From Tribonema minus (lineage: Eukaryota > Sar > Xanthophyceae > Tribonematales > Tribonemataceae): DNA of 64,000 bases. The stretch spans positions 992,001 to 1,056,000 of the forward strand of contig JAFCMP010000257.1 in NCBI GenBank assembly GCA_017506865.1. Direction: 5' to 3'. Of this stretch, positions 5,213 to 64,000 are shown one piece after another; position 1 is the first letter of the stretch, and each line of letters opens with the position of its first letter. The notes below the pieces were generated by a model that was given only the letters and a program-made list of their open reading frames with translations, was not told the origin of the DNA and did no database searches. The translations under genes and the position numbers were made by a program.

Positions 5213-6482
5213 GCGGCACACCGCCCCACTGCAGCGTGATGCACAGGCAGCAGTGCTCACCTGAAGCACATCGCCACGTACGTACAAATCATATCTGCCG
5301 CGCCCATGCATCACTTACGACGCACACAGGAGCGACGCAGCGCTCGACCGCGGCGTGAAATTTGAGAAGTTGAAGCCTCGCTCGCCATCGCGTCGCGCTT
5401 AGAAGCTCCAATGCTGTCTGATTATGACTGAGAATGGGTTCTCAGCCTGTGCACAAATACCGGTCGCCCTTTTCACTTTTAACTGGCCTTCCCAATTTGA
5501 CGGGTCACCGCCCCCATTTACTGCCACACCGCATGTGTCGGACAGTGCAGTGCCTTCAATTCGGACAAGACGACAGTGTCCATGTCAACGGCGGTTCATG
5601 GAACAAGGCGCGCGCACGTGGCAGCGCTCACCTGAAGCAAATGGCCTCGTACGTGCATATGATATTTGCCGCGCCCGTGTCGTACTCAATGGTGCCCATC
5701 TCCATGCTCGTGTTGGCCGAGTTCTGCGAGAAGACGCTGATGACAAACCCGTCGTTGCCCAGCGACATGCCCTCGACCTGCTCCAGCAGGAGCCGCCTGC
5801 GGGATGGCGGCGGAGCGTCACCAGTTGCAGCCAGCTGGGGGCGTTTGTAACTGAAGACGCCATCTATTTGGTGAAGCACAGCACGCAGTCTAATAGAAGT
5901 ACAAAAAATGCTGTAATTGCAGGCCTCGCCGTTCAGTGCAGGGCCATACCAATGCAGACTAAGCCGAGGAGCAGAAAGTGTGATCGAGCGGCAGCAGATT
6001 GCGCCTAGCACATGAAAAACATGTGCGCCAAAGTCGTATGCTGCCTGACGCACACACTCGATGGCAAATTCAGCAGCAAATGGACTGAACCCAAAGTGAG
6101 TCGGCTGGCTTTGCGAAATGTTGAGGTTAAGTACATTGAGCTTAGATGGGCGCATGACTGGGCTCGTTTGAGCCAACAGCCAGTCACCACACGCTATGAA
6201 ACCAGCGAACTCGCACGCATACAAACACGGTTGAGAGTTGCTCATCGGCTTTAGTGTGGCATATGCTGACCCCACCCCTAAGCAAAGCGCTTCACACCAA
6301 CAAGATGCATCTCCAGTGGCTGTCAATGAACAGTGTGCACGGTATACTACAGGCCGTGTCCTAAGAATGATGTCAGCGCTCAGGCGAGGCCCATCACAGC
6401 GCTCAGCCACTCACCCAACGACTTCATGCAGGTTGGGCCCGAAGAACTGCGGTTCCAGCAGCAGATCCTTTTTTAGCGTTTT
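2487..6482 (-). CDS. RPB7: RNA polymerase II subunit RPB7
   Basis: RPB7 forms the Rpb4/7 stalk of RNA polymerase II, contacting nascent RNA and the initiation machinery. Minus-strand exons: 6482-6415 (KDLLLEPQFFGPNL), 5796-5632 (EQVEGMSLGNDGFVISVFS to TYEAICF), 3854-3788 (RPFRNEVLDATVS..GFFAE), 3488-3384 (VGPLEIFVSRFNMPEDI..YDSVGDMW), 2612-2487 (VRLRIIGITVEAELKAVG, SMKDDYLG, stop TAG). All four joins keep phase and give 176 residues, against about 171-172 for the family. Only the first few codons (expected to read like MFF-) are not located; they probably sit in a tiny exon upstream of 6482. The N-terminal part corresponds to the RNP-like domain and exons 3-5 to the S1/OB-fold domain. The SMKDDYLG ending separates it from the Pol III and Pol I paralogues. 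Introns 1 to 3 are long and repeat-rich. Confidence 0.93.
3123..3162. repeat. (CAG)n trinucleotide microsatellite
   Basis: About 13 perfect CAG units lie in the last intron of RPB7. Non-coding in the gene model; likely length-polymorphic. Confidence 0.9.
3877..4143. repeat. 24-bp minisatellite in RPB7 intron
   Basis: About eleven imperfect 24-bp units with the core GATGCTCAGCACGCTAATGT. It begins only about 20 bp from the acceptor of the third visible RPB7 exon, on its intron side, so it occupies the branch-point and polypyrimidine region of that intron. Units are contiguous, with no unique spacers, which rules out a CRISPR array. One or two units carry 2-3 bp insertions. Confidence 0.9.
4170..4600. 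repeat. Cluster of direct and inverted TATAAGAGCGG words
   Basis: The word (C)G(A/G)TATAAGAGCGG occurs six times in direct orientation (near 4171, 4187, 4203, 4242, 4534 and 4549) and twice inverted as CCGCTCTTATATCGTG (4278 and 4584). Two of these pairs form hairpins with roughly 15-bp arms and short loops. Between the two groups lies a stretch of AACCCTA-like repeats (about 4443-4525). All of it is inside the long RPB7 intron. Confidence 0.8.
5152..5209. repeat. (CA)n microsatellite, preceded by a short (GT)n run
   Basis: About 28 CA units follow a short TG run at 5133-5147, giving a potential hairpin. It lies in the second long intron of RPB7, just beside a copied exon edge. Confidence 0.92.
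5254..5309 (-). repeat. Copy of an RPB7 exon 3' edge with its donor site
   Basis: This segment repeats the last roughly 48 bp of the exon that ends at 5632, plus the splice donor (CTTCAG/GTGAGC), about 370 bp downstream inside the intron. Differences are scattered single bases; the donor is intact. No acceptor-bounded full exon accompanies it, so it is read as a decoy donor rather than an alternative exon. Confidence 0.75.
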
Positions 6483-9400
6483 CTGCGCGGCGCGAGGTGT
6501 TTCGGAGGCTGATGAGATGATAGAGCCCCACCCGCCATTTTAGACGAACTTCAAGTGATGAGGCTTGCTTTGAAAACCTAACTAACCCTACCCTAAGCAG
6601 CCTTTCAGGGTTGAAACAGGACAATACGCAGGGAAAGAAAGCGGATACCAGGAAGGCAACATGCTTCAAAAGGCACTGTGACTTCCACAAACCAACAGCT
6701 TCCGACACCACAACTTCCGCAAAGTATGCGCACGCAAGGCAGCTTTGATGTGACTATTCCTGCCAAACACCTGTTATGGAGCCATTCACTGGCAGCGCAG
6801 TTGACTCACACTGGCCGCGTGAGTCAACTTCGCCACGGCATGAGGGCGCATGCTCAGGGCCGTGAGCTATGCACCGCCATGTGCGACCATCATATACTTC
6901 GAAGTATGGTGCTTTCGCGTAAAATGCCATGACATCAAGCTATGGAGTGGGAGGCAATGACACCACAGCGTCACCACAGGCAATCTCTACTGCAGCGTAT
7001 GCGGTTTCAAGCACACGAGCTCTGCACATGCGGCACCCTTTACCTCTCACCATGAGGCAGCAACAACCGCAGCTGCAGACATGCCGCTGCCTGTATCATA
7101 TCCAGGTATATTTCTTCACCAGTTACGTTAATGAATCAGCGAATTCCACAGGCACCGGGCCGTACTGAGCTCAATCACGCCTTAGTGCTCGGGAGCGCTG
7201 TGTATGGGCAAGGGACCAGCACCACACCTACTGCACCAAAAGACTAGAGCCTGCTTGTGAACTGCGCCGTCAATGGTGGCAGGCGACTGAAGAGGCGTGT
7301 CTGGCCGTTCTGTGCTGCGGCGGCTGGTGCCAGCGCTACGACACCCCGCTGTGGCATCACCGCTGTGGCGTTGCACAACAGTATGACGTAGCGCGAAACG
7401 AGAGCAGTCGCACGAGGCCGATCACACCGGTGCATACTCTACGGCAGCGCAACAGCAGCGCGATCAAGGCCACATAAAATTGAACGCTCTGCCAGCTGCA
7501 GTGGCGTTTAAGGATGGTGATGCACGGTTTCTTGCACAGCACAAACAGGGAAGTTGATAGACACTGCATGCAGGCCAGCACTACCAAGGCTCGCAGAGGG
7601 CAGCAGCATAGCAGCGAGGTTAGAAGCTGGCCAGATTGATAATCGAGCAGAGTTTTCAGTGCCAGGAAGACACTGTTGACTACAACATAAGTTGGGCGTG
7701 ACGGGTATGCACTCAGGCTTTGGGGTTGAGTGTGTGTGCTGCGTTTGTGCTTGTTGCAGCTGCTCGCCAACAATGCCAACACAGCATCACGGCTCTGAGT
7801 GCATCAGGCAAAATGTTGTAAGTAAATTGTTGCAGGTTTGCAGCCTTGACTCACCAAATAGAACATGCTCTGCCCTCCTTTGCTCCCTCAAGGCAGCCTG
7901 GATCGCTGTTTCCTGCCACTTCCACAATGCAATCAGCAGCGCCCCCCACACACCGGTACGATGTCAACCTTGCAAATACTAGTTGCTGCTGCGCGCTCCA
8001 CTTAGCGCGGGCGTCGCTAAACAGATCTGTATCTGGTGTGCTTTGGCGGCAGATGAGGTTGAGCGCTGTTGCCTGGCCGTACAGTGCAGGGTCCTCGACA
8101 ACAGTAAGGTGTGTTGTTTTGACCAGGCACGCAACAGTGTGCACTGAGGATTTCGAATCTCTGCTGACAAGCACCGAGAGGCGCTGATTCCACTGATGAG
8201 GTGAGTGTTGGCCCCCATGCGCATGCCCACCTCTGGCACGCCGCAGTTTATTCTCGTGCTAATCTGTGTGTCGCACATCGAACCTTGTATACGAGGCAAG
8301 AGAGAGACAAGCAAGATCGGCACTGTATGCGTTCATGGAGCGGCCTGCAGCCACTCAAGCGCAAAAAAAGTCGCAGAGGCGGTGGCTGCTTTTAGATAGA
8401 AGCCAATGCGGGAGAGCTCAGCGGGGCTACGGCGGAGCCATGAGATGTGGTCTCGAACGAGGCTGGCCTACACGCTTCTTAAAATTTGCTCATTGCCTAC
8501 GTTGTTTCACAAAATTTTCTCTTCCAACACGAAACTTACACAGCGACTGCTGCACAGGACCGAGTCACTGCAAGCCGCTTGCTGTGCAATTGCCCCTAAG
8601 CTATGGCTGGGCATGAGAACAGCGCATTTGCCAAAGAGAGGGCGAGCATCTGTAAGCATGTTGTGCTTTTGGCTTTAACAGTCAGGATACATTCAATGTC
8701 TTGCTGACATTGTTTCGAGAATCAAGTCACGATGCGCGGCGCATGCTGTGCTCAGCTCGTCCCGCCAACGCCCAGAGCAACCAATGATTGCAGTGAGTGA
8801 CTCAGTGGATGCCACAGTGTGATGCCATGGGAGCATGCACGAGCGCCAGACGCCATGCTTGCTCCGTCTGCCGCTGCTTCTACACAAGTGCGCCATGCAG
8901 AGGAACCTGCAGCTGTGAATCGCCAGTTGACATTGTTCAAGTAGCAACGCAGCAACCCGCAATGTGTGATGCACTGTGTTTGCGGTAGTTGTGTGCGGGC
9001 TTGTGTGTACATTGCAAAGGCGTGAAAGTAACATTGTGAAGTCACTGCAAAGCCTGCTTAGAAGTCAAGACAGCATGTACGTTTGCTTGCTCTTGGTATA
9101 CAACACATCTACACTGCCTCGGATAGATGCTGCAATTTGACAGTCGCTGCTCAATTATAGTTTGGGTTAGGTTTACGTTTTGGCTCGGGTTGGCGAATTG
9201 TTGTTGATCTTACAGCTCTGTGCTGCCGCCTGCACCTGCATGGCTATGTCCCTTTGCAGGTATGAGGCCGGCTGCTAGAGCTGAGTCAGCCAAAGTTGCG
9301 CCTGCAGGTACGCACTACGGTCAGTACATGTACTTCGGAGTGCATGTTGAGACATGCCACCGCTCGCACACGATAAGCTCAATTGTTGCAGCAACCCTTT

Positions 9401-17387: not shown

Positions 17388-17523
17388 GGCTGGATGGCGC
17401 AATTGGCAGCGCGCACGATTCCAAATCGTGCGGTTGTGGGTTCGAGTCCCTCTCCATGGTCAACCTGCACAGACGCCTGGCAGGCTGCCGGTCAGCTCGA
17501 CGTGCAGTGCGGCAGCGTGCTGA
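17104..17523 (+). pseudogene. Truncated copy of the N-terminal part of the 18.2-kb ORF
   Basis: The frame carries the same N-terminal sequence as the ORF at 18188-19363 (alanine run, AVTVAESSRQHTDSAHD, RRPLG, TNS-like tail) but after GSDV runs into the tRNA-Trp copy and then a stop, so some 300 residues are missing. It is most simply a partial duplicate that has lost its 3' part. The upstream portion may be no more than alanine-rich translation of repeats. Confidence 0.6.
17388..17456 (+). pseudogene. tRNA-Trp(CCA) copy with broken acceptor stem
   Basis: The body is identical to the tRNA-Trp at 23884 from the first acceptor base through the T arm (TCGAGTCCCTCTCC). It then reads ATGGTC instead of GGTC, so the 3' strand of the acceptor stem is displaced by two bases and no longer pairs. 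Anticodon loop TTCCAAA, D arm and T arm are intact. It sits exactly at the end of duplicated copy 1. Likely a tRNA pseudogene. Confidence 0.75.
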
Positions 17524-23883: not shown

Positions 23884-23956
23884 GGCTGGATGGCGCAATT
23901 GGCAGCGCGCACGATTCCAAATCGTGCGGTTGTGGGTTCGAGTCCCTCTCCGGTCA
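23884..23956 (+). tRNA. trnW-CCA: tRNA-Trp (CCA anticodon)
   Basis: Folds as a standard cloverleaf: acceptor GGCTGGA with TCCGGTC (two G-U pairs), D stem GCGC/GCGC around an AATTGGCA loop, anticodon stem CACGA/TCGTG with loop TTCCAAA giving anticodon CCA, five-base variable loop, T stem GTGGG/CCCTC with one T-T mismatch, T loop TTCGAGT, discriminator A. CCA is not encoded, as in eukaryotes. No intron. A T-poor terminator is not obvious, although a TTTTTT-containing stretch (ATTTTTTCG) follows within 10 bp and would serve Pol III. The T-stem mismatch is the only blemish. Confidence 0.9.
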
Positions 23957-46860: not shown

Positions 46861-49800
46861 TTACAGCTTACGGCCGAGCACACGCACCTCCGCCATCTTG
46901 CTGGCCTGCTTCTTGCGGTAGCGCTTGTTGTGCTCCGTCCTCTCGGCCTTGAGCTTGGCAGCGGCCGCGGGGTCCTTGACGGCCAGTATCGCGCGCGCGG
47001 CCTTCTTCTTGTCGCGCTTCGCCTCCAGCGCCCGGTTGGTGCGCGTAATGGCCTCAAGGAACACTCCAGCACCAACCTTCTCTTCCAGCAGCTCCATAAC
47101 CTGCAGGCGCGGACAATGAGGCGGCAAGCAGCGTTGTGTGTGAGCAAGCAACCTGCATCAGAGAGGCGCAATGTGCACTTCAAAACTTGAAGTATGTATA
47201 TATACGCCATCATGCATGCGTGCGTGATGGCCTTCCAGGCACATTCTCGCGCCGACCTTCTCCTCCAGCAACTCCATGACCTGCACGCGGAAATGAGATG
47301 AAACGCGGTCCGTGGGGCATGTGTACTACTAATTCAAGTAGACATTCACATGCAAGGCGTGCAAATGGCTGTTTTAGTAGTATTGCTGCCCAACGATGCC
47401 CCCTCAGCCCACGACCAAGGTGCGCAACAGGCTAAACCGTCCCTGTGCAACCCCACCACCGCCGTTGCAAGCCGACTGTGCGAGCAGAGGAGTGTTACGT
47501 GCATATCTCTTGCACCACGTGATGGCCATTGCAGCATGCCATGCATACCATGCAACACATCCCTTAAGTGCACAGTTTTAACAAGAACGGTTCGCAATCA
47601 GCAAGACCACTCCCCCGCAGTCTCCACTGCACCATGACTTAAACCAACATCTGCCGGTCCAGCCCATGTACGCAAGCCACCCAGACTCTGCTCCCAACTC
47701 CTTCCATCAGTACCGAATTATGGCACAGACAATCACTGCCATACACAACCCTTCTTCTAACTCCATATCCAACCCCAGCCCTGAGTGCAGCAGCTCACCT
47801 CAGTAGCGAGGTCCGCAACGGGCATCAGCTCTCCCTCCGCGCCGCCGCCGCCGCCGCCGCTGCCGCCATTGACGACCACGTTATCCTCGTCGGCGCCGGT
47901 GCGGTCCTTCGCGTCCGCGTCCAGCATGCAGCGCCGCAGCGGCGTCAGCATGTGCGGCAGGAAGCGCGCGACCGCCGCCGCCGGCAGCGCCGCCGCCATC
48001 GCCGCGAACCACTTGAAGACGGCGCGGCGCCGCGCGTCGCCCTTCGCGCGCCCCATGAATGACATGCGGTGGAACACCCACACCAGCGGGTCGCGCTCGC
48101 CGGCAGCGCCGCCGCCGCCGTCGCTGCCGCTGCCGCCGTCGTCATCACCGGCGGCATCATCGGACGCCTCGCCGTTGCTCTCGGGTGCGGCGGCAGCAGC
48201 GGCGGCGGCAGCGCGCTTGCGCTTTCCGCCGCCGCCATTGGTAGCGGCCCCGTTGGCAGCGGCGGCACCGTCGCCGTCCGCCGCCGCTGCGAAGCACAGC
48301 GCCGGGTGCGCGTGCATCGCGCGCGCCGCCCACACCAGGTTCTTGGTCGCCTGGTCCAGCAGCGCGGGGTCGACGCCCGCCCTGTCGAGCTGCGCGGCGC
48401 TGTGCCTGCACAGCTTGAAGGGGCCGCCGCCGCGCGCCAGAAAGTCACCCGCCGCCGCCGCCGCGCCGCCGCCGCCGCCGAGCGGCGCCAGCGTCGCGGG
48501 GTCGCGCCGCGAGAGGTACGCGCCGAGCGCGCGCGCGCACGCGAGGCGCACCCACGCGTGCGGATAGACGAGGCACGCGCACGCGGCGTCGAGCGCTGCC
48601 GCGGCGGGCGCGGCGGCGGCGTCGAAGGCGGCGGGCAGCGCCGTGATGACGCGCTCGAGGCAGAGCGCGGCGTGGTACGCGCACTCCCAGGGGTGGGTGA
48701 CGGCGGCGGCGGCAGCGGCGGCGGAGGTGTCCGCCACTGCCTCCACCTGTTGCGGTTTCCGGCGCGGGGGCGTGTGGGTGCGGCGTTAGGTGAAGCGGTG
48801 ATCGGGGCTGATTGCAGGCGGTTTTTTGGGATAGGTCGCATGCCATCGTGCACGAAGGAAGGACGCTTCTGAGTGTCGAAAAAAAAAAACGCGCACCATT
48901 GCACCTGCACACATACAGGCTGTTGGATTCTGGACAGTCCCTGCTTTTGTCACAATCATCTGGTACTGCTGCCCTTGTCAGTGTGCAACACCGCATTTCC
49001 ACCAAACGGAATTCACACACGCAGCGCGCGCGCGCACACATGGCACAAACGCTCGCGCGCGGACACTCGCATCCTGCAGCGACGCCGGCAGGCGCGCGCC
49101 AAGCGCGCGCAGCAGCGGCGGCAGCGCGGACAGCAACAACTTGCGTCCTGGACAAGACACTCACGCATGCACACGCACGCGCACACGCATCAAAGAGACA
49201 CGTGCGCATGTATTCACTGCGTAAATGCACACGCACAACCACTCGCGCCGCCACTCACGTCCTTGACCGAGGCAGGCAGGCACGCGGTCAGCGCGCGCAG
49301 CAGCGGCGGCAGCGCGCCGCCGCGGCGCGCCAGGTCCGGGCGCGCGGCGGCGGCGAGCGCCGTGCACGCCGCCGCCGTCTTGGCCAGCGCGCGGCGGCGG
49401 TGGTCCTCGGCGCTGTGGCCTGCGGCCGTCGCGTTGGGCGCTGGGTGGTGGATTTGAAGTTGGGGAGCGAAAACGCGCGCAATGAGGCGTCAGTGAGTGT
49501 GGTGGGTTTGAACGCGTCAAGAGAGGCGTCGGCGTGAAGCGTTGCAGGCAGGGGGTTTGGCGGGTGTGTGCACGCGTTGGGAGCAGATGCGCGCCCTTCA
49601 AGTGCAGCAGCGCTCCGCTCGTGGCAGTGTGTTTGTTGCTGACGCAGGCTGTCACTGGAGCACCAGGACAAGATGAAAACATGCACGAGTGCGTGTTATA
49701 CCTACCCCCGCGGCAGCCGTGCGTGCATGTGACTGCTGAGCATCAGCACCGCTCGGGCAGAAGCAGCACAGCGCATGTTCCACACACGTACCGCAATGTA

Positions 49801-52800
49801 CATACATACGTACGTACCCGCGTCCCCCTCGCGCGCGTCGCTGAACCAGCGCATCGCGCACCCCCACAGGCCACATTCTTGCTTCCCCTTTGAAGTACAC
49901 ATGTCTACAAACGCACTGCAGCATAGCATACATACTTACTCACCCGCGTCCCCCTCGCGCGCGTCGCCGAACCAGCGCATCGCATAGCCCCACAGCTGCG
50001 CGTACACGTCCGCGCTCACGCGCGTCAGCAGCTGCGTCAGCGCTGCGCTGGCAGCGGCGCGCGCGGCGCGCGCATCGTCGCCCACCGCGCGCACCGCCAG
50101 CGCGAGGAAGAAGAGCTGCGCGTGCTCGTCCAGGAGGGGGACGGGGAGGCGGCGAATGAGGTGGCGCGCCATGTCGAGCGCTGCCACGCGCCCCTCCTGC
50201 AGACACCAAGCAATGCAACATCAAGCAATGCAACACGAGTGAGGGTAGGGTTAGGGCTAGGGCTGGGCAGAGACGCATGCGGGGTTGGGGTCAGGGTAAG
50301 GGGTAGGGTTAGGGCAGGGTTAGGTTGGTGGCGCGGCATGTCGAGCGCTGCCACGCGGCCCTCCTGTGAACGTGTGCAATGAAACGACATGGGTGAGGTT
50401 AGGCTTACACGAGTGAGGGTAGGGGTAGGGTCGGGGCGAGGCGAGCAAAAAACGCATGCGGGGTTGGATTGTAGCCATGTCGAGCGCTACCACGCGGCCC
50501 TCCTGCGAACGTGTGCAATGAAATGACATGAGGGAACGTACCAGTAGGATTAGGGTCGGGGTGAGGTGAGGAGAGGCGCATGCGGAGATGAGGTTAGGGT
50601 TCAAGTAGGGTCATATTCATGGTACCCATGTCGAGCGCTGCCACGCAGCCCTCCTGTGATCGAACATGTGCAATGTAACGACATGAGTGAGGGTAGGGTT
50701 AAGGTCACGTGCGGCAGCGTAGTCGTGTGGGAGGGTTAGGGTTAGGGAAGATTTAGGTTGGTGGCGCGTCATGTCGAGCGCTGCCCTTCTGTGCGCATTC
50801 GCAATGGCTTGAGTAAGGTTAGGGTTTCATGAGTGAAGGTAGGGTTAGGGCTGGAATGAAGTTCATCTGCGAACACAACCTACTTACTTCACACCTCAAG
50901 TTGATACCCTAGCTATCACCCAAACATGCCGAGAAATGAAGATCGTAAATTGCATTTGTGCAACTTGAAGCACTTGTTACCTAGAAGCAACCTTGGACAG
51001 CATGCACCTGCTTCCAGAGCAACACGCACCTCATCTTGGTACCCTAGCTATCACCCAAACGTGCTCAATGTGGCAGATTGCGTTGTGCGCTTTCACAGCA
51101 CGCGTGACCTGTGAGTAACTTGGACACACTTTGCACCTGCTTCCAGAGCGACACGCACCTCATGATGCGCTTTCATAGCACGCGTTACCTATAGTGACCT
51201 CGACAGCATGCACCTTTTTGCAGAACAACGCGCACCTCGTGTTGGTACCCTGTCCCCTCCAGGACTGCCCTGAGGTGCTGCTCCAGGCGCTTGGCCCCCA
51301 CGGGGTACGTCACCAAGAAGTCCAAGAACATCTGAGAGAGAAAAAGTCACGGCAGCAAAGGCAGCTGGTCCACATCAAAGAGCTTTGTGTATGGTGGTGC
51401 AGCAACTTATCGCAAGTGTCTACAAAGTTGCTGTGCACTTCCAGCCCTGCTCCAGGCGCATGGTGCCCAGCGAACAACGCACCAGTTACTTGAACATGGA
51501 TGTTGCTGTGACCTCTCCTCTGGTCAATACGTCAATCGCATCACTGTGCCCCTAAATCGTAACCCTCACCCTAATGACAAATGAATCAAAAAAGATCGTA
51601 GAGCTCTAGGTGACAAGGGATGGTTAGCCGCAAGTGCCTGCCACCAATATACTCCACAGCGGCAGAGATGGAGCGGATTGCACTGAGCCGTGCTCCAAAG
51701 CAGTCCTGCCCGCTGTCTGCACAAAAGGCGCGCTAATGATGACCAGCTTGCCAACCTCCACCATTATGTCATACACAAGCGTACCTACTTCGAAGTACTT
51801 CATTGTCCTCGGAGTCTGACTCGATCGCTCAAGTACCTGAGAGCACGTCGCGCGCGCAGCGAGCGCGCGGACTGACAATGGCCAGCTATGCTGACCTCCA
51901 CCTACATCAATATACTCAGAGTCTGACTCAATAACTGAAGTACCTGAGAGCACGTCGCGCACAGCGATGACAACGGTCAGCTATGCCAACCTTCATCTAC
52001 CAACGTCAACATACCCAGAGTCTGCCTCCAACACTCAAGTAGTGAGAGCACATGCGCGCAGACTGACAACAGCCAGCTATGCCGACCTCCACCCACATCA
52101 ACATACCCAGAATCTGACTAAAATACTGGGCGCACGTCGCGCGCAGCGACGCACGGGCTGACGGTGGCCAGCTATGCCGACCTCCGCTATGGTGTCGTAC
52201 GTTGTGTACCTGCGGCAATGTACTCAGAGTCTGAATCAAACACTCGAGTACCTGAGAGCACGTCGCGCGCAGCGACGCACGCAGACTAACGACGGTCAGC
52301 TATGCCTGCATCCACGTCAATATACTCAGAGTCTGACTCAAAAACTCAAGTACCTGAGAGCCCGCCGCGCGGAGTGACAATGACAAACAACGGCCAGCTA
52401 TGCCTACCCTTACCCACGTCAGTATACTCAGAGTCTGACCCAAACACTTGAGTACCTGAGAGCACGTCGCGCGCAGCGACGCGCGCGGGCTGATGACGGC
52501 GAGCTTGCCGACCTCCACCATGATGTCGTAGACGGCGGGCTGCAGCACCTGGTGCGCGACGATGGCGCGCAGCAGCGCAAACGTGGGCGCCTGGTGGTCC
52601 TGTTCCAGCAGACTGAGAGTTGACGCACAAAAACAGGAGAGTGGACGTCAGCGGCACTGTCGCGTTGTGCTGGCATGCATGTCGTCGCTGCATGCATGCA
52701 CAGAGAATATAGCAGCGCAAAGCACGAGAGCGCGCTTTGGCGCTGCCATCTTTGACTGCAAATGCGCAGCAGCGCAAACGTCGGCGCCTGGTGTTCTTGC

Positions 52801-55800
52801 TCCAGCAGGCTGAGAGTTGCGACAGAGTTGACGCGAGCAAAAAGGAGAGAGCACGTCAGCATTTCGATCTGCAAATGGCGGCACGCAATCGAACCAACTG
52901 GCAGCAGCGCAAACGTGGGGGCCTGGTGACCTGCCCCAGCAAACTGAGCGTCGCGGCGGACATGGCGCGAGAGCGCACATCAGCGGCGCTGTCACATTGT
53001 GCTGGCACCCACGCAGTCGGTGCATGCATGCACAGAGCTAGCAGCAGAGGGCGCGCTTCCACGTTGCCATCTGTTGAGTGCAAGTGCGCAGCAGTGAGAA
53101 GGTGGGCGCCTGGTGGTCCTGCTCCAGCAAACTGAGCGCTGCGACAGAAGTGACGCATGCAAAGAGGAGAGTGCACGTCAGTATGTCAATCTTGATATGG
53201 CGGCACGCAATCGACCGCGCAGCAGTGAGAAGGCGGGCGCCTGGTGGTCCTGCTCCAGCAGGCTGCGCATTGCGGCGACGGCATCGGACGGGAGTGGACA
53301 TGTAGGCATGCACAACCCCTTCAAGTAGATGGCACTTGTGCGCCAATGCATCACCTGGCCTTAAGCAGCGTCAGCAGCGCGTCCATCTGCTTCTGCTGGA
53401 GCCCGAAGAAGCGCTGCGTGGGGCCGCGCGCCGCGCCGCCGCTACCATTGGCGCCGTTCGCTGCCGCCGCCGCCGCTGCGTCGCGCTTTGCCGCAAACAG
53501 GTCCACCTGTGAGTCGCACAGCGCCGCCAGCATCTTGAAGCACGCCTGGGAGGTCTCGCTGCGGATGCCGGCGACGCCTGAGCCGGGATGACGTGCGTGC
53601 GGAGGAGCGCGGCGGCAGCAGCAGCAGCGGCAGCGCGGGCAGCAGCAGAGTCAGCGGAGCAGCGGGCGGGGGCGCACCGTGCAGACGGTGACCTAACCCT
53701 AACCCTACCCCTGAGGTCTCTGCTGCGGATGCCGGCTACGAAGTGACCATGTATATGTACATGGTGCCCCGCCAGGTCTGAGCAGCGCACTTTCCAAGAC
53801 ATCCCCACCGCAGCAGGAACAGAGGGAGCCAAAGACCTGCCAGATGGCTACCTGAGCATTGCCGCATTCCTCGAAGCCCGCTGCGATGCCCATAACGGAA
53901 ACTTCGCCAAGCAAGCATCTTGAAACACGTTTACTGCTGCACGCACCAGGGGTGCGTGACACAAAGCCTGTCCTTCCGCTTTTGCCGATGGCATAACACA
54001 CTTTTATAAGAGTACTTGAAGTGTAGGGAGGAGAGTCACAGCTCACCGGAACGCGCCAGCAACTTCAACGCGACGCGCCCTATCTCCGGCGCCTCCTCCT
54101 CCTGCACCGGCAGCTTCCACTTGAGGAGCTGGCCCATGGCCTTGAGTGCTAGCAGCGTGATGTGCGCGTGAGCGCTGTGCACCACGCACCTGAGCGATGG
54201 CGCGGCGAGCAAGGGGTATGTAAGGGTATGTAAGGGTAAGTAGGTATGTGCGTGAGCGCGGTGCACCACGCACGTGAGCGCAGTGCACCACGCACGTGAG
54301 CGATGACGCGGCAAACGGGGGGGCATGTATTGTACGCCATGGGTAAGTATGTAGTCTACATGATGTGCGCGTGCGCGCTGTGCACCACGCACCTGAGCGA
54401 TGATGCGAGGGGGGGGGGGGGTATGTAGGGTGTGTCAGGGGTAAGTGCGTAGTCTACGTATGCGATGTGCGCGTGAGCGCTGTGCACCACGCGCCTGAGC
54501 GATGGCGCGAAAAACGAAACACGCGGCAGTGCTTATTAGCCGCACTTAAAATGCGCAGCATCGGCACGTACACAGGGCGCAGCCAGCTGCAGCACATGCT
54601 CTCCAAAACGAGACGACAGACACGCACGCAACATGGGAGAGTCGCACAGCGCGTGTAGGCACTTAGGCAGTGGTGGCAGCGCTCACAAGGCAAACTCACA
54701 TGCGCAGCATCGGCACGTAGGGCGTGGCCATGGCGCGCGTGCGCGCGTCCTTGGAGTCGAGCAGGTTTCGCCTGAGCGCTGATACGAGCAGGTTCAGGCC
54801 AAATGTAACCGCCGCCAGCGCAGCGGGGTCGCCTGTCTGCAGAGCGCTGCCCTTGTCTGGGGCCTCTGCTCCGGGGGCTGCGCGTCAGCGGGGGAAGGAG
54901 GGGGATGTATGTATGTGAGTGAAGATCGGATGCCGAACAAGCTGAGGATGATGATGGTTTTTCACAGGGTATATTTTGTCGGATAGGTGGTGTTGGGAAC
55001 GGATGCCGTTGAGAATGGGACTGATGCACTGTAGGTACGCATGTCCATGCACCCCAACTCCAACCCCAACCCAAATCCTGACGTTAAGCGCGCGCCTGAC
55101 ACCCGCTGCTGAGCAGCGGTGCACTAAGCATTGGCATCACGCTTGGTATGCAGCGCTGCTCGCCGCGGCCGCTCTGCCTGCCGCGCAGCGCAGTCGTTGC
55201 GCAGCGCACGAGTAGCAAGAGCACCACTGCGTATTTATGGCGCCCTCTCCCTGCAGAGCTCGTGCGCAACCGCTGTGAGCGCTGTGAACCCGACAGTATC
55301 TGCAGCACCGGGCGCCGCGCCTCTTGGGGCGCAGCGTATAGACTAGACTAAATCGCGCCCCATGTGGTGCAAGGGTCAGGGTTAGGGTTAGGGTCAGCAG
55401 CACACCAAATATCCCTTGACACCGCTACCACACACAACTTCATCAATACGTACCTGGTGTGCCCGCGCGCAGCCGCTTGTGCGCGTGCCTGTCGCGCCCC
55501 GTCAGCGCCGGCGCGCTCTTGCCGTCCGTCACGAGCACCGCCGCGGCGGCGCGCTTACGCTTGAGCCCCGCCGCCGTCTCCTCCGCGCCCACATCTGAAC
55601 TCAGCCACCGCCGCGCCAGCTGCTGCTGCCGCTGTTGCCGCGCTGCGCCGTTGCGCTGCCCTTTCTCGCGAGTCTCCAGCTCCGAGTCCGAGTCGCTGTC
55701 GTCGTCGGTTTCGCTGTCGGTTTCGTCGCCAGCGCCGTTCCGGGACTGTTCCGCGCCGCCGGAAGGTTCCGTGCGGTCGCGCGGCAGCAAAAACGGCGAC

Positions 55801-58800
55801 ACGGTAGCGTGCACGTAGAGGAGTAGCTCGTGTGCCGTGACGCTGGGGTTCGCGGTGAGGCCCAGCACGACGCGCTCCAGCGCGATGCCGACTGGGGAGG
55901 GGGGACATGGGGGGGGGACAGCAGCAGTGATCAGCCAAGGTGGTGTTGAGGGGGCTTGAGGTGCGGTATGGTGTTGTGGCGTTGTAGGGGGGGGGGGGGG
56001 GAGGGGCGAAAGGGGGGGTGACAAGCAGCGATCAGCCAGGGGGGTAGTGTTCGGGGACCGTTGAGGTGCGGCATGGTGCTGGAGGGGGGAGGAGGGGGGG
56101 GGGAAGGGGGGGGAGGGGGTAGACAACAGCAGCGATCAGCCAAAGGGGTTTTTGTAATGTTCGAAGGGCTCGAGGTGCGTTATGCTGCTCTCTGGTGCGA
56201 TGCTGACTGTGTGCGCACACGGGGGTGACGGGTGGGGGTGTGGGGGTGTAGTGATCAGCTAGGGTAAGCGCAGGGGCTTTCGGTACGAGTGTGAGGGCCA
56301 GTAGGATGCTGACTACACGTGCGCACTGGGAGGGGGGCAGGTGGTTGGGGGCAGCAGCAGCGATCATCTAGGTTTAACGCTGGGATTGGGGTTGAGGTTA
56401 CACACCCTAGAATAGCCCTACATCAGCTCTTGTGGCGCCTCACTTAAACAGAACTTAGGACGTGGGTTCAGGTGGCTCTACACCTCTTCGCGACACCCTA
56501 TGAAACAATCTGCTTCTTGGTCGCCAACACATGCTCTCATGACTTGCATCAACTTGATCGCTTGGTCATTGCATCCGGCACGGCGGCGAATCGTCAACCA
56601 CATCTTTCACAACAGAACCAACCAACCTCAACTCTACCTTTGTTGGCGCTCTTGCGGCTCTCGCTCGCGTTGACGTGCAGCAGCAGCGGCGCGACGACTG
56701 CGTGCACGCCGCTCACGTCCGAAGGCAGCGCTCCTGCGGGCGCGATGGCCGTGTAGCTGGGCCTGAACAGCAGCAGGCGCGCCGCCGTCTCCAGCGTCTC
56801 GTAGGCCTTGGCGCCCTTTGCCTCCTGCGACACGACCATGTACAAAACCGAGCTGAGTATGTAGGAGGGGGTATGTATATGTGTGTTCAAGGGTATGTAG
56901 CAGGCGCGCCGCGTCTCCAGCGTCTCATAGGCCTTGGCGCCCTTTGCCTCCTGCGACGTGATGTTTTAAAACCGTGAGTTAGGGGGGGGGGGGGGTATGT
57001 ATGTCTGTGCGTCGAAGGGTCGGTAGGTAGCAGGCGCGCTGGCGTCTCCACCGCATCTTTCGCGCCTCAGCGCCCGCGACCGAGTGCGGGTAGTGCGACG
57101 CGTAGAAGAGATGGGTCTGTGCTTTGCAGTGGGTAAGTTTCAGATTACCAAATCAGATCCCTCCGAGGCTAGCAGGTGTTATGCGCGTCACCGTTATGCG
57201 CGTCACCGACTCCAGAGTGGTGGCAGCAATCATGTGGGATTGCTGACACAAACACTGCAGTAGTTGAAAGGGATTTGCACCCGCTTTAAGGCAAGCGCAG
57301 CATCAGACGCCCGCTCCGCGACAACCTTCATCGCTGGACGCACTGTTTGACCTTGACTCTACATAATCCTAACCCTAACCCTAACCCTAAGGCGCGCAGA
57401 CAGTAAACGCAACAAGTGTGTGTGAGCGTGGCGGCCCAGCACGCATACCCACACATACACGCATATGAATGCATGCCCACGTCCGTATACACCCTAACCC
57501 TAACCCTAACCCTAACCCTAACCACAAGTGGTCCCTCCTGTACACGCACAAAAAACACATATGCACATGCACGTAAGCATATACTTCAACATGCACTTCC
57601 ACACGAACACACCTTGGTCTTGGAGACGTGCGCCACCGCCGCGCCGCTCTCGCGCGCCTCCGCCGCCTCCCCAAACAGGTCCTCCATGCACTGTGACACT
57701 ATCTCCGGCAGCGCACGGTCGAACGCGGGCACCACCGGCTCCACCGCCGCCGCCGCGCCGCCGCCGCTGCCCGGCAGCAGCGCGCTGGGCGCCGCCGCCG
57801 GCGGCGCGTACGCCTCGGCGAGCGCGTGCAGCACCGCGCACAGCGTGTACGTGCGCACGTGCAGCTGGTAGCCGGAGTGCAGCGCGGTGCGCAGGTGCGC
57901 GAGGACGGCGCTCAGCTTGTCGGGGCCGAGGTCGCGCGCCATGGACGCGAGCGCGCCGCGCGCGGCGTCGCGCGCGTTGCTGTCGCGCGCGCGCAGCGCC
58001 GCGCACACCGCCAGCAGCAGCGGGTCGAGCTCGCGCTCCGCGAGGCGGCGCGGCAGGCGCAGCAGCAGCTTGAGCAGCGCGAGCGCGACGGGGGCGCGCA
58101 GCACGCGGTCGCCGCGCGCCGCCGCCGCCGGCACGGGCACGTCGCCGCTGCCCTTGCTGCCGCCGCCGCTGCCGCGGTTGCGCGCGCGCGGCGCCGCGGC
58201 CTTGTCCTCGCGCGTCAGCAGCGCGCGCAGCGCCGGCAGGATGCGCCCCGTGAGCGCGCGCCAGATGCCGTCGCCGTTGACCTGGACGTCCGCCGCTGCC
58301 GCCGCGACAGCAGCACTGTCTTCCGCCTCCTCCTCGTCCTCGTCGTCGCCGGCGGCAGCGCTGAGCGCGGCGGCGTCTGCGCCAGCAGCAGTGGCAGCAG
58401 CGCCGTTGGCGGCAGCGCTCACCACCGCGTCAACGGCGGCGGCGGCGGCAGCGTCGTCATCCGCCTCCGCCGCAGGTGGCGTGACCGTAAAGTGGAAGCC
58501 GTCGAGAATGGCGCAGAGGCCCGAGGAGATGGGCTTCTCGCGCTGCGGCGCGGCGCGCAGCTGGCGCATGAGCAGCAGCAGGCAGCGCTGGTAGTGGCTG
58601 AAGGGCAGCAGCGACGCGAGCGCGCCTGCGGTGGCGGCGCCCTCCACGACCATGAGCTGCGGATGCGCGCGCGGCGGCAGCAGCGGCGGGAGTTGCGACG
58701 AGGCGCGCGTGAGAGAGTGCCGCACTGGCGGTGCAAGGCACGGACAGTTCAAGTGAAATGAGGCACGGTGATCGCAGTGACCGCGCGTGTGCAACATACC

Positions 58801-61800
58801 AGGGCATGGTTGCTTGCGATCGTTGCATGTGACCGCTGTTGCGGCGCGCCGTGCGACTCCTGAACTCTGGTGCATCAACACTGATTGGTGCCGCCCAGCG
58901 TCCAATCAAGCCTGCGCCCACAAAGCATGCATACCGTGCAACACGAGTCGACAGACGCGCGCGTGCCGCGCGCGCGCACCTGCTGCGCGTTGGTCTCGCA
59001 CTCGTACAGCGGGTGCAGCGCGAGCGGCATGAGGTAGTGCGCCACCGTCTGCGGCGCGAACGCTGCCTCCGCCGCCGCCGCCGCCTCCACCGCCGCGCGC
59101 ACCGCTCGCAGCGCCTTGATCCTCCTGTGCAGCTGCAGGTGCACGAGGTTGGAGAAGAAATCCGCCTCGGCGTCGTCGGGCCGCGCGAGTCGCGCCAGGT
59201 CGCACGGCAGCGCGCCGCGCCCCGCGTCGGGGCGGAACACCGTCGCCACTGCCTGCAGCACCATGAGGTACGGGCGCCGCGCGAGCTCGCCGCGCTGCGC
59301 GACGCCGCCGCGCAGCGCCGGCAGCAGCGCCGCGTCGGTGAGCTCGCGCCACGCGCCGCCGCTGCCGCCGCTGCTGCCATCGGCGGCGACATCGGCGGCG
59401 GCGGCGGCGCCGGTGACGAACGCGCGCAGCGCCGCCGTCGCCGCGCCGCGCAGGCTGAGCTCGTCGCTGTGCAGCAGGTGCAGGCAGTGGTGCAGCACGG
59501 GCGACGCCGCCAGCGCGGAGAAGTCGCCGGCGCCGCCGTCGGCAGCAGCGGCGGCAGCGGCGGCGTGGTCGATGATCGCCGCCCAGCCGGCGTTGGCGCT
59601 GAGCGCGGAGAGGACGGGCACGACGCGGTCGAAGTCGGGCTCCTCGCCGCCGGCGCGCCCTGCAGCGGCGTCACGACATCGGTGCGATGAACGAGGCGGC
59701 GTTCAGCGGCTGCAAGGTATCGACGCTTCGTGGTGACGGTGCAGCCTTATCTGCGGGCGTATTGATTTTTCAGTAATGAAGATGTGCTAGCGTGTGCGTT
59801 GTGACCGCTCTACGGCGGGCAAGGGGCGCACACACGCATGCGACTTATGCACGTATCCGAGTCAAAGCGCTGCTGAGCACTGCCCCATATAAAAAAATCA
59901 GAATCAATGCAGCAGCTCAAGTGAAGCAGCGCTCCATCGCAAAGAATCAGCATCAGGAAGCATGCAGCAGCTCAGGGGAAGCAGCGCGCATCAGGTGAGC
60001 CCAGCACTGGTTGTTGAGCTCTTCGGGCTGACGTTGACCTCTTGAGGGTTCACCCTAACCCTGATCCTAATTTAAACCCTATGCTGCAATGCCTGTCAAG
60101 CGTTCCTGGGCTACCCATCACAAGCCCTTCGCTGCTGCACAACAGATCACTCTACAGCGGCACGGCCTGATGAACGCGCCAGAGCAGCAGTGCTCAGGTG
60201 CTGTACCCACCCCCCGCAAGCACGCCATCCGAGGCACCAAACCGCACCCCCCGCCACGATCCACTTCAACTTCAACCGCCCACCTGGCTCATACGAGTTC
60301 AGCGCCTCCACGGCGGCGAGCGCAGGCGCCGCCGCCGCGGCCACGCTCTTATGCTGCGCGAGCGCCGCCAGCGCCGCCACCGCTGCGCGCCGCTGCACAG
60401 GGTCCGCCCCCGCGCCCCCTCTCGCGGGGCCCAGCAAGCGCGACAGCGCCGCCCACGCAGGGCGCGGGTCTGCGACGCGCGGCGCCAGCGCGGCGACGGT
60501 GCGCAGCGCGGCGGCGCGCGCCGCGGCGGCGGCGTCCGCGCCCGCGGCCGCGGCGGCGCTGCGCGGCGCGGGGCGCAGCACGAGCAGCAGCAGCGCGACG
60601 AGGCGCGTCGCGGTGGCGGCGTCCACCGCCGCGGAGGACGCGGGCTGCGCGGCCGCGAACTGAGCGACGCGCGCGAGCGTCGCCAGCTCGCGCTCCGTCT
60701 GGCGCGCGGCGGCGGCGCTGGCGGCGCCGGCGGCGCCGCCGCCGCCGGCGAGGCGCTCCGCGAAGGCGTCCGCGGCGGCGCGCACGTGCGGCAGCAGCAG
60801 CCGCCCGCCGTCGTACTCCTGAGCGCGGCAGCGGCGGCAGCAGCAGCAGCAGCAGCAGCAGCAGCGCGGGCAGCCAAGAGAGAGGGTTGGCATCGTCGAC
60901 AGACAGCCTGGCAAGACAATGCGATAATACAGAAGTTCTGGTACACTGTGCTTCCGCCCATAGCTGGCATGCCATATGCTGGAGCTGAATCTAACCCTTG
61001 AAAAGCGCCCAGACCAACACTCAGGCAGGCTCGCTCGCACGACACGTGGAGTTGTCACCCAGAAGCTGTTGGTGCTCACCCTGCATACAAGAAGACGCTG
61101 AATTACCTCCCAGGCTCTTGTCCCCTGTTCTAAAAAAGTGCAGCACGCGCTACACATCGCGAGTCCATTGTCTCTGCAGCGCGCTGAACTAACCGGACTC
61201 AGGGCATCAATACCGCCTGCCCTCCAAACTGAATTCAACTGACGCCACCTGCGGGATCAATTTTGACATATAAAACGAGAACCGACTTTGACGTGCGAAC
61301 GTCAATGATCATCAACTTCAACACATGAATACCAACTTCAAAGCTTGCAGAACGGAGCATCAATGATTGGCCGCGCTGCATCGGCGGCTCAATCCTCCAC
61401 CGTGCACGGACAGAGCACAGACGAAACTCCAAGCCCAGCACTGCAACTTCACAACTCACTCACCAGCAGCGAATCCATGACAGACAGCGAGGCGTCCACG
61501 GCGCCGCGCCCCGCGCGCGCGGCGCCCACGCACCGCACCGCCGCCGCCACCGCCGCCGCGCCGCCGCCGCCCTCCTCCTCCAGCAGCGGCGTCAGCGGCG
61601 GCAGGCGCGCGGCCGTCTCGATGAGCGACAGCAGCGCGGGCGCGGCGGCGGCGCCGCCGGCGCACGCGGCGGGGAGGCGCGCGACGGAGCGGCGCAGCGG
61701 ACGCCACAGCGCGGCGGCGTGCGGCGCAAAGTCGTACGCGCCCGCGTACTGCTCGAGCAGCGCCGCGGCGGCGCGCAGCGCGAGGGGGCGCACAGCGGCG

Positions 61801-64000
61801 GCGTCACGCGCGCGCGCGTCGTGCGGCGGCGGCGGCTCGGTGGCGGCGGGCGCCAGGGCGGCGTCGTTGGTGTCTGGGGATGGATGTTTGGGTGTGTGCG
61901 GGTATGATGTGTGAGCGTGCGGCCGAAAGGAAGACGGTGATGAGCGGGAATGCTGCACACTGCCCAGCCATCGTCATTCGCGACTACAACCCCCCCGCTG
62001 ATCACACAGTTGAAGTTACATAGTTGCAGTTATGATTTCCGCCGACGCATCTGCAACTCAAACACAAGCGCCAACACGGGATCTGCAGGCGAGCATGAAA
62101 ACACATACCAAGTCCAGCCCTATACATGGCAACCCAAACCCACAAGCAAAACACCGACCGCGTACCATCTTCATCATCCTCATCCATGGCGTCATGGGCG
62201 TGCGCCGCCGCTGCCGCAGCCGCATCTGCATCCGCCGCCGCCGCCTCCGCCTCCCCCTCCGCGTGTGCGAGTATCGCGAGGACCAGCGACACCAGCGGCC
62301 GCACGTAGTCCACCGCCCTGTGCCCGAGCTGCTTCGTCACGTCCTGCACCAGGTTCAGGAAGCCCACGCGCCGCCCCAGCGCCACCGCTCCTGCCTCCGC
62401 CGCCGTCACGCGCTCCGCCGCCGCCAGCGCCGCCGCCGCGGCCTGACTGGCCTCCGACGCCGACGCGTCGGGCGGCGCTGCCGATGCTGCCGCCGCCGCC
62501 GCCGCAGCGCGCTTCGCCGTCTTCTTGGCCTTGCGCCCCGGCGCCGCCGCCGCCAGCGGCAGCAGCGCCGTGCCCGCGCGGCAGGAACGCGCGCGCCATG
62601 AGCGCGACGAACTCGCCGAGCTCCGCCGGCCGCAGCGCCGCGAGGAACGCGAGGATGGCGGCGCGGCGCGCGGCGGGCGCGGCGCCGGCGGCGCCGCCGC
62701 GCGCGCCGCCCTTGGCCACGAAGCGCCCGAAGAGCAGCCGTATGAGCACCGGCACGAGGTGCGCGCGGTGCTCCGCCAGGACGCCGTCGCCGTCGCCGCC
62801 GCCGCCGGCGCCGCTGCCGCCGCTGCCGCCGCCGCTGCCGCCGCTGCCGCCGCCGCTGCCGCCGCGGTCCTCGGCGCCGAGGCGGAACGTTGCGAGCTCG
62901 TCGCGAATCTTGGCGTCGTCGAGCACGGCCAGCAGGCGCGCCTTGTACGGCGCGACGCCCGCGGGGCGCGCCGCCAGCAGCGCGCCGAGCGCCGCGCGCG
63001 CGACGGCGGCGTCGGGCCGCAGCAGCAGCGCCGCCGCGAGCGCCGCGAGGTCGCCACCGCGGTGCGCCGCCGCCGCGCCGCCGCCCTCCGCGCCGCCGAG
63101 CACGCGCAGCAGCGTGAGCATGCGCGCGCGCACGCTGCCGCCGCTGGGCCGCGCGCCCGCCGGCCACGGCCGCTCCGCCGCGCCCTCGCCCTCCAGGCCC
63201 GCGGCTGCGGCGGTGGCGGCAGCGGCGCCAACGTCTGGGTCGTCGGGGTGCACATGCATGTACTGGCGCGCGAAGAAGGCGAGGACCATGGGCACGAGCG
63301 CGCGCGCGCGCGCCGCCGCAGCCCCGGCGCGCTGCCGACAAGGTCCCAGACGAGCGCGTGCAGCGCGTCGGCATCCGTGGCGCCGAGCAGCGGCGCCGTG
63401 CCGGGCGGCGGCGCGAGCCCCTCGCGCACCGCGGCGTCGTCCGCGACGCCCTGCAGCGCGAGTGGGTGTAGCTCGGCGGCGGCGGCGGCGCCGCGGCTCT
63501 CCAGCGCGGCGGCGTCCGCCAGCAGCGCCGCTGCCAGCGTCGCCGCCGCGGCGGCGGCGTCATGCGCAGCGCCGGGCTCCTGCGCTGCCGCCGCCGCCGC
63601 TGCTGCTACGGAGTCATCGCCCTCGCCCTCGCCCTCATCGTCTTCTTCACTGTCTTCGTAGCCGGACTCCTCCGCCGCCGCTTCCGCATCCCCTCCCTCC
63701 TCTTTGGGCTCATCCTCCCCCTGCTCCGCCCCCCCGCCAGCATCCGCGTCAGCGGCAGCAGCCGCAGCGCCGCTGCCGCCGTGACGACCGCCGCGGCGCC
63801 GCCGCCGCTGCTGCGCGCCGCCGGCCCCCGCTGGCTGCACCGGCGGCGCGTTGACCTCGTGAAGCTTGCTGAGCAATGCTGCCCAGGCGGACTCCTCGTC
63901 CGCCGCCAGCGCTGCGCGGAAGGCGGAGGCGGCGGCGGGCCAGATGCCGGCGTACTTGACGCTGAGCAGGCCGAGGCAGTGGCTGGCGAGGAGGGGGAGG
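46861..64000 (-). CDS. UTP20: UTP20, U3 snoRNP / small-subunit processome HEAT-repeat protein (5' end outside window)
   Basis: UTP20 is a giant helical-repeat protein of the nucleolar 90S pre-ribosome, needed for 18S rRNA processing. Minus exons: 64000-62166, 61873-61464, 60818-60284, 59659-58980, 58656-57613, 56824-56638, 55891-55454, 54877-54700, 54189-54047, 53577-53355, 52612-52456, 51331-51236, 50196-49944, 49419-49259, 48746-47799, 47100-46861. Every junction keeps phase; about 2,500 residues lie in the window, against about 2,800 for human UTP20. Diagnostic stretches: VLAEHRAHLVPVLIRLLFGR, ADFFSNLVHLQLHRRIKALR, SHYQRCLLLLMRQLR, GYQLHVRTYTL with EDLFGEAAE, APTFALLRAIVAHQVLQPAV with YDIMVEVGKL, WVRLACARALGAYLS, and a basic tail (EAKRDKKKAARAI..KRYRKKQASK). 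Long Ala/Gly/Asp runs, coded by GCC repeats, expand loops. The first exon needs a change of frame twice (see findings). Confidence 0.93.
47248..47288 (-). repeat. Copy of the last UTP20 exon's acceptor edge
   Basis: Repeats CAG/GT(T/C)ATGGAGCTGCTGG and some 35 bp of the final exon (true acceptor at 47100), about 150 bp upstream in the intron, with AG kept. The copied reading frame (VMELLEEKVGA) then runs into intron. Confidence 0.8.
49080..49130 (-). repeat. Copy of a UTP20 exon donor edge (exon ending 49259)
   Basis: About 50 bp reading ALPPLLRAL and LPAS repeats the 3' edge of the exon that ends at 49259. At the position of the donor it has GCGAG instead of GTGAG, so it is not a normal GT donor. 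Confidence 0.65.
49818..49868 (-). repeat. Copy of a UTP20 exon donor edge (exon ending 49944)
   Basis: The last 45-50 bp of the exon (AMRWFGDAREGDA region) and the donor are repeated about 125 bp downstream in the intron, with one change in the exon part and a good GTACGT donor. Confidence 0.8.
50205..50860 (-). repeat. Tandem array of UTP20 acceptor edges with TTAGGG-like tracts
   Basis: Four copies (near 50330-50365, 50470-50507, 50628-50663, 50768-50797) of the 5' edge of the exon that starts at 50196 (AG/GAGGGCCGCGTGGCAGCG, then CTCGACATGG), spaced about 140-150 bp, each still preceded by CAG. Between them lie degenerate AGGGTTAGGG and GTGAGGGTAGGG tracts. Confidence 0.88.
50990..51235 (-). 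repeat. Copies of a UTP20 donor edge (exon ending 51236)
   Basis: Two diverged copies, near 51020-51045 and 51147-51165, of the edge GGTACCAACACGAG/GTGCGCG. The first keeps TACC and the GAG/GTGCG donor. CACCTGCTTCCAGAG and a CGCTTTCA(C/T)AGCACGCGT block are repeated with them, so the unit is about 75-125 bp. Confidence 0.65.
51700..52455 (-). repeat. Tandem array of UTP20 donor edges (exon ending 52456)
   Basis: About six extra copies of the donor edge (GCGCGACGTGCTCTCAG/GTACTTGA) lie at roughly 100-bp spacing (near 51831, 51939, 52038, 52128, 52247 and 52347; the third and fourth are degraded). The unit also contains CAATATACTCAGAGTCTGAC and GGCCAGCTATGCC. The outermost region (51712-51780) carries a longer piece of the same exon, reading YDIMVEVGKL. 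Confidence 0.88.
52760..53275 (-). repeat. Tandem array of UTP20 acceptor edges (exon starting 52612)
   Basis: Four copies of the exon's 5' edge (CTCAG/TCTGCTGGAACAGG-like, reading LLEQDHQAPTF) at about 52764-52815, 52904-52950, 53088-53140 and 53219-53270, all keeping AG. Units also share TGGCGGCACGCAATCGA and a GCATGCATGCACAGAG block. Confidence 0.88.
54249..54508 (-). repeat. Tandem acceptor edges (exon starting 54189)
   Basis: The edge CATCGCTCAG/GTGCGTGGTG, followed by CACAGCGCTCACGCGCACAT, recurs three to four times (near 54250-54310, where it is doubled and partly degraded, 54363-54405 and 54465-54505), with CAG kept in the last two. GGGTATGTAAGGGTA-like spacers separate the units. 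Confidence 0.85.
54549..54578 (-). repeat. Copy of a UTP20 donor edge (exon ending 54700)
   Basis: CGTGCCGATGCTGCGCAT is repeated about 150 bp downstream of the true exon end. The following bases are TTTAAG, not GTGAGT, so the copied donor is dead. Confidence 0.65.
55900..56390. repeat. G-rich minisatellite carrying copies of an acceptor edge
   Basis: Four to five units of about 110-130 bp share CAGCAGCGATCAGCCA, a TTCGAGG/TTGAGGTGCG block and poly-G. Two units also carry a shortened copy of the exon edge (AG/TCGGCATCGC; near 56200 and 56308) that truly starts at 55891. Confidence 0.75.
56885..57080 (-). repeat. Two copies of a UTP20 acceptor edge (exon starting 56824)
   Basis: 56895-56962 repeats some 65 bp of the exon start (CAG/GAGGCAAAGGGCGCCAAG, YETLETRRA-like in this copy) with AG kept; 57025-57078 is a more diverged second copy. 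GGGTATGTA-type spacers lie between. Confidence 0.82.
57363..57392. repeat. Interstitial telomere-type repeat
   Basis: Four CCCTAA units in a UTP20 intron; a second run of about five and a half units lies at 57490-57523. On the minus strand both read TTAGGG. Confidence 0.9.
57490..57523. repeat. Interstitial telomere-type repeat
   Basis: Near-perfect (CCCTAA)n, about 34 bp, in the same UTP20 intron as the run at 57363. Confidence 0.92.

Follow-up and report, generated by a model that had tools for sequence, protein, structure and literature searches.

The DNA considered here is a stretch of 64,000 nucleotides from the xanthophyte Tribonema minus (GenBank assembly GCA_017506865.1, contig JAFCMP010000257.1, C257 below, positions 992,001 to 1,056,000), which we call the window. 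Its last part is occupied on the minus strand by a gene for UTP20, predicted to run a further 3,389 bases past the window end (locus L011). The identity of the gene is given by the Pfam families UTP20 (E 6.7e-29) and UTP20_N (E 4.8e-28) and by matches to human and fungal UTP20 chains in the PDB. The introns of this gene contain, often several times over, copies of the edge of an adjoining exon together with its splice site and a flank of intron. These copies probably arose through recurrent tandem duplication across exon-intron boundaries.

Exons were predicted with a hidden-Markov gene finder that was self-trained on 205 kb of the same genome and blind to the coordinates of an earlier, sequence-only reading of the window, in which copies had been proposed at eleven UTP20 junctions. 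It placed ten of these junctions exactly (47100, 50196, 52612, 54189, 55891, 49259, 49944, 51236, 52456 and 54700), and set the exon start proposed at 56824 at 56852 instead. Each junction was then aligned locally with its adjacent intron, and a copy was called at a score of at least 36 with at least 12 exon nucleotides (Table 1). At least one copy was found at ten of the eleven junctions; 55891 has none, and 54700 has only an exon match. The acceptors 47100, 50196, 52612, 54189, 55891 and 56824 yielded 1, 4, 4, 4, 0 and 1 alignments, and the donors 49259, 49944, 51236, 52456 and 54700 yielded 1, 1, 1, 7 and 1, where some alignments of one junction overlap each other. Part of the copy belonging to 47100 had been mis-called by the gene finder as an exon (47257-47280). 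One UTP20 exon, searched for similar sequence, matched only beside itself.

Table 1. The UTP20 gene and the copies of its exon edges in the window.
Feature	Position	Strand	Remarks
UTP20 gene, part within the window	46861..64000	-	gene finder, Pfam PF20416 and PF07539, PDB UTP20 chains
Acceptor-edge copy, exon starting 47100	47222..47297	-	spans -20 to +58, 81%
Four acceptor-edge copies, exon starting 50196	50327..50785	-	94-96%; outermost without AG
Four acceptor-edge copies, exon starting 52612	52764..53265	-	75-91%
Four acceptor-edge alignments, exon starting 54189	54247..54509	-	72-98%; neighbours overlap
G-rich array beside exon starting 55891	55894..56149	-	period 103; no exon-edge copy detected
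Acceptor-edge copy, exon starting 56824 or 56852	56899..57026	-	78%
Donor-edge copy, exon ending 49259	49034..49128	-	79%
Donor-edge copy, exon ending 49944	49774..49869	-	83.5%, 126 bp off
Donor-edge copy, exon ending 51236	50969..51045	-	16 exon nt and 59 intron nt, 80.5%
Seven donor-edge alignments, exon ending 52456	51728..52378	-	six cross the junction; some overlap
Match to donor edge, exon ending 54700	54551..54570	-	20 nt, exon only; stops at the junction, GT not included

Across the 205-kb sample, 141 predicted introns were considered, once 14 exon predictions had been dropped for their match to a neighbouring exon, and most counts come from the single contig C257. Gene models are ab initio except for conserved genes, and junction counts are approximate: one of the 14 removed exons matches at only 73%, a likely UTP20 copy-exon (57066-57116) was left in, and gene model 0 probably joins several genes into one, its frame breaking after the copy-exons are removed. 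At a score of at least 44, 40 of 232 exon edges (45 nt) matched their own adjacent intron, against 0 of 1160 edges shuffled by first-order Markov resampling, 0 of 1150 comparisons with random introns and 3 of 216 with the intron on the exon's other side. With the score lowered to 36 the corresponding counts were 46/232, 0/1160, 2/1150 and 5/216. Because both the random-intron and the shuffle controls are near zero, the copies are not due to chance, and they are private to the adjacent intron. Exon segments taken 45, 90 and 135 nt from the junction matched the adjacent intron in only 6 of 160, 1 of 110 and 1 of 79 cases (8/160, 1/110 and 1/79 at the lower score). The claim that exon bodies are not copied therefore stands for most exons, with the qualification that a few short exons are copied whole; tandem duplication of whole exons with alternative use was rejected on the same comparison of interiors with edges.

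Copies that span a junction number 77 and occur at 45 of the 282 junctions (29 donors and 16 acceptors), all of them on C257. They are spread over five of the ten gene models, with 26, 9, 4, 4 and 2 junctions each; none was found in gene models 3, 4 and 5 (16 introns), nor in L022 and L023, stretches of two other contigs that hold 9 of the 141 introns. Twenty-seven junctions carry one copy and the others two to six. Median distances are 159 bp between the true junction and its nearest copy and 151 bp between successive copies, most of the latter falling at about 100-200 bp; at 35 of the 45 junctions the nearest copy is within 200 bp of the junction that it resembles, the introns having a median of 795 bp. 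The repeated unit comprises the exon edge, the splice site and the intron flank, in the same orientation as the original, although not in every copy. Both halves are usually, but not always, copied: in true-copy pairs the similarity of the intron flanks is above the 95th percentile expected at random for 36 of the 51 donor pairs and 14 of the 26 acceptor pairs. Among alignments of at least 85% identity, the 22 that cross donors contain 26-107 nt of exon and 5-171 nt of intron, and the nine that cross acceptors contain 5-99 nt of exon. Exons are 71% GC and introns 55% GC.

As the sequence-only reading had noticed in UTP20, most copies retain the splice dinucleotide, and this is true of the whole sample: both letters are intact in 37 of 51 donor and 22 of 26 acceptor copies. 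The loss at donors resembles that of the surrounding letters, identity per base being 0.82 in the GT, 0.89-0.94 in the exon letters beside it and 0.80-0.84 in the intron letters, and selection acting on the decoy sites is not clearly apparent in the 51 donor copies. Scored with a weight matrix, true donors average 7.3 bits and their copies 4.9, true acceptors 7.1 and their copies 4.4; 36 of 51 donor and 18 of 26 acceptor copies lie above 4 bits, and the copy scores at least as high as the true site in 23 donor and 7 acceptor cases. Because copies often score as well as the true site, and only 7 of the 77 could be spliced to with the frame kept and no stop encountered, the splicing machinery would presumably have to tell the true site from the similar ones beside it. 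The further claim that the true site is always the one nearest the exon body agrees with the gene models, but it is nearly definitional, since it follows from those models. A high share of the predicted introns (28 of 141) start with GC instead of GT, which may mark the lineage or the gene finder.

The differences that have accumulated in the copies were examined by codon position, over the well-matching stretch adjoining the junction. Mismatches between exon and copy amount to 0.079, 0.062 and 0.133 at positions 1, 2 and 3, and those between two copies, both of them intronic, to 0.103, 0.093 and 0.178. Non-coding copies should by themselves bear no trace of codon position. An excess at third positions is as expected if copies were stamped at different times off an exon that was itself changing synonymously; alternatively, it could come from conversion by the exon or from selection on the copies.

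The same pattern reaches beyond UTP20 and the window, to nine contigs besides C257. On four of these (C1, C51, C5 and C135) it was read in the DNA. An LHC gene on C1 (L026, 1235708-1238998) has two upstream copies of an acceptor edge, and its paralogue on C79 (L025, 1259091-1262381), with an exon 90% identical to that of the C1 gene, has none; these copies were gained or lost recently. The introns of the two paralogues have no detectable similarity despite their 90% identical exons and so seem to turn over fast. No internal repeats were found in the LHC loci L024 and L025. The antenna proteins of this red-plastid alga come closest to fucoxanthin-chlorophyll proteins. Two pairs of LHC loci have identical profile scores (C70:84559-85430 with C489:5435-6306, and C296:14307-14717 with C490:834530-834940); these are perhaps haplotypes or recent duplicates and would be useful for dating the birth of copies. 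Genes for CCT chaperonin on C51, C5 and C135 were flagged by profile matches that repeat one exon edge. Counting the true site, their DNA shows runs of five acceptor sites on C51 and five on C135, and a run of six donor sites on C5.

The remaining five contigs (C246, C511, C479, C538 and C522) are suggested by profile matches alone. This survey covered five conserved families with 56, 80, 134, 44 and 99 rows (413, counted by script, apart from the LHC table of 92 rows). Among the matches listed, at least ten copies are nested at an exon end within 1 kb (at least 4, 0, at least 3, at least 2 and at least 1 by family): none was counted in the 80 rows for HSP70, and at least one in the 99 for myosin. 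All ten sit on the intron side of the exon end that they match. In one further row a copy is paired with another copy; staggered overlaps on C279, C190 and C168, three in all, were excluded as ambiguous.

We sought to understand why the copies are found at junctions, on which the sequence-only reading had described them as centred. If breakpoints were equally dense everywhere, the sample would offer 5.3 times more interior than junction-crossing positions. Detected arrays occur at 45 junctions as against 10 introns with independent interior repeats, a 24-fold excess. When arrays are matched for age (intron-half identity of at least 0.85), five junctions remain against six introns, a 4.4-fold excess (p = 0.02). 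Much of the apparent centring is thus persistence, because selection keeps the exon half recognisable; the smaller residual excess may reflect targeting or conversion. A simple intronic minisatellite, placed without regard to junctions, was rejected given these excesses, the age-matched one from small numbers.

These results are best explained by recurrent local tandem duplication across exon-intron boundaries, followed by neutral decay of the copies, with the exon edges anchored by selection, and we consider this account probable. One end of each duplication would usually lie 25-110 nt inside the exon and the other in the intron, such that the exon stays intact and a copy of its edge, splice site and intron flank lands in the intron. 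The copy, being non-coding, would decay more or less neutrally, splice dinucleotide included, while the real exon edge under purifying selection would change mainly at synonymous sites. Later duplications would stamp copies off a nearly constant template, old copies would stay recognisable, and each copy would freeze the state of the junction at the time of copying. The same process would lengthen introns. Splicing would ignore the copies, perhaps because the real sites border a longer, GC-rich coding exon. The proposal of the sequence-only reading, that repeated duplication across boundaries enlarges introns and leaves decoys, is supported, outside UTP20 as well.

Several observations weigh against this explanation. 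Repeat coverage, computed before the copy-exons were removed, is 0.27 over the last 25 nt of donor exons, 0.085-0.087 at 400 nt or more into the intron and 0.021 in 32.5 kb of intergenic DNA, and duplication is therefore not uniform. Coverage at acceptors peaks only weakly (0.17-0.19 at the junction, 0.07-0.12 deeper in the intron), and on the exon edge (0.17) it is not above that 100-150 nt inside the exon (0.17). In acceptor copies the last three intron letters have an identity of 0.90, compared to 0.72 for the intron before them, a difference that may reflect either weak retention or the alignment rule, which favours these letters. The age-matched excess may mean that neutral survival alone is insufficient. 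The exon halves of donor copy pairs are more alike (0.82) than the intron halves (0.67), and five donor copies, 90-98% identical over 45-83 exon nt, break off 5-10 nt into the intron, a sharp end that plain single-age tandem duplication would not produce and for which conversion or non-tandem copying is possible. The gradient in coverage and both junction excesses would fit duplication that is actively targeted to junctions, by co-transcriptional R-loops, the GC step, nucleosome edges (about 150 bp) or template switching at the splice site; so would the fact that 22 of the 45 alignments of at least 85% identity cross donors and only one begins no more than 40 nt from a donor that it does not cross. 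However, the age-matched excess comes from five junctions and six introns, an exon anchor lengthens detectability, the acceptor peak is weak, and a breakpoint signature was looked for without success, and we think targeting unlikely. Gene conversion from the conserved exon, refreshing the exon halves of old copies, is compatible with boundary-spanning duplication as an added step and would account for the five sharp-ended copies, whose intron halves are diverged, and for the disparity between halves. This disparity is partly a bias, as copies were found through their exon halves, and in the 11 copies with an intron-side identity of at least 0.8 the two halves are about equally similar; conversion as an added step is accordingly somewhat doubtful.

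The third-position excess in differences between copies, and the many copied sites above 4 bits, would also suit copies that are real alternative or regulatory exons, or decoys maintained as aids to splicing. We regard this as improbable: donor dinucleotides decay about like their neighbours, few copies could be used in frame without stops, the third-position excess is expected anyway from staggered stamping off a synonymously changing exon, and the LHC paralogue on C79 does without copies. Intron gain, either by tandem duplication of an exonic AGGT segment (the Rogers model) or by introner-like mobile insertion, appears very improbable, even though new introns by tandem duplication are described (PMC4974935), dispersed element families exist in the genome, and copies reach the far intron end in two short predicted introns of gene model 0 (96 and 235 nt). 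These two are possible exceptions fitting the Rogers model, or mispredictions. The Rogers model puts donor-side exon sequence at the 3' end of the intron, whereas most nearest copies here lie close to their own junction. Insertion of introners or miniature inverted-repeat transposable elements (MITEs) is at odds with the length of the donor-side copied exon parts, which exceed the direct repeats given for these elements, 3-5 nt for introners and 10-15 bp for MITEs (PMC7789003). An introner family was also rejected on the absence of random-intron matches in the sample, where spacers were not searched family by family.

In a 10-kb stretch with arrays (L017), no mobile element matched over the junction copies among the best 39 of 175 candidates, with frequent words skipped. 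The stretch does contain three dispersed element families of about 740, 850 and 460 bp (1986-2724, 5373-6231 and 7808-8265), with several to many copies in the genome; immediately beyond the far end of the 460-bp family are short matches to its start in inverted orientation, an arrangement that terminal inverted repeats would produce. The motif TTGAAGT occurs 143 times in the introns of the sample (11.9 expected from base composition); it was considered as an element boundary, and no family was established. The telomere-like sequence GGTTAGGG occurs 44 times in introns (4.6 expected) and once in intergenic DNA (1.4 expected). Beyond the window end, C257 carries a PAS-domain gene (PAS_9, E 3.8e-18) at window coordinates 68146-75145 (L011 and L012), which is cut by the contig end and which we take to be LOV-like. 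One intron of this gene has both its donor and its acceptor edges copied. Elsewhere in the window, Rfam identifies two tRNA genes (17391-17456 and 23884-23956).

Arrangements that set several candidate splice sites side by side are familiar. NAGNAG tandem sites do so a few nucleotides apart, and tandem exon duplications do so by copying whole exons, which are then used. Among reported duplications, the closest is in the potato RdRp gene, where a single tandem duplication over an intron-exon boundary doubled the splice site and exon edge and created a new intron (Ma, Lan and Niu 2016, PMC4974935); in T. minus, by contrast, dozens of junctions are involved, often with multiple copies, and the copies lie inside an existing intron. 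The Rogers model, as described in the same paper, likewise yields extra splice sites by duplication, but it requires an exonic AGGT and makes the intron from exon sequence, which is not the usual layout here. Internal tandem repeats located where exon and intron meet, their units averaging 30 bp, are reported from human genes in segmental duplications to underlie 27 intron modifications (PMC2812944). Those repeats also sit on boundaries and alter introns, but they are minisatellites in recent paralogues, unlike the copies seen here, which are spaced by about 150 bp and occur in ordinary, conserved genes, at 45 of the 282 junctions sampled. The introner elements described for Amoebophrya likewise place repeated sequence in protist introns (PMC7789003), as dispersed families with short direct repeats rather than as junction-private copies. 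No description of a genome in which about one sixth of junctions carry such copies was found among the matches listed from open-licence titles and the starts of abstracts. Boundary-spanning duplication is thus known singly and as repeats in some human genes, and the density seen here appears new.

For annotation the copies are a warning, as illustrated by the 14 exon predictions dropped from the sample because they matched a neighbour's edge; aligners are also reported to mis-splice between repeats (EASTR, PMC10632439). The arrays show one way in which introns grow, and they provide a natural series for the study of splice choice, in which similar real and decoy sites adjoin in conserved genes. 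With dated copies, the rate of boundary duplication could be measured. A more far-reaching possibility, which at present seems to us rather unlikely, is that duplication in this lineage is itself linked to junctions, by way of transcription, of splicing intermediates or of nucleosomes positioned at the GC step, and continues to place copies of splice junctions in introns. The introns would then preserve, as dated fossils, earlier states of their exon edges, and the spliceosome would have to rely on exon context over local splice signals.

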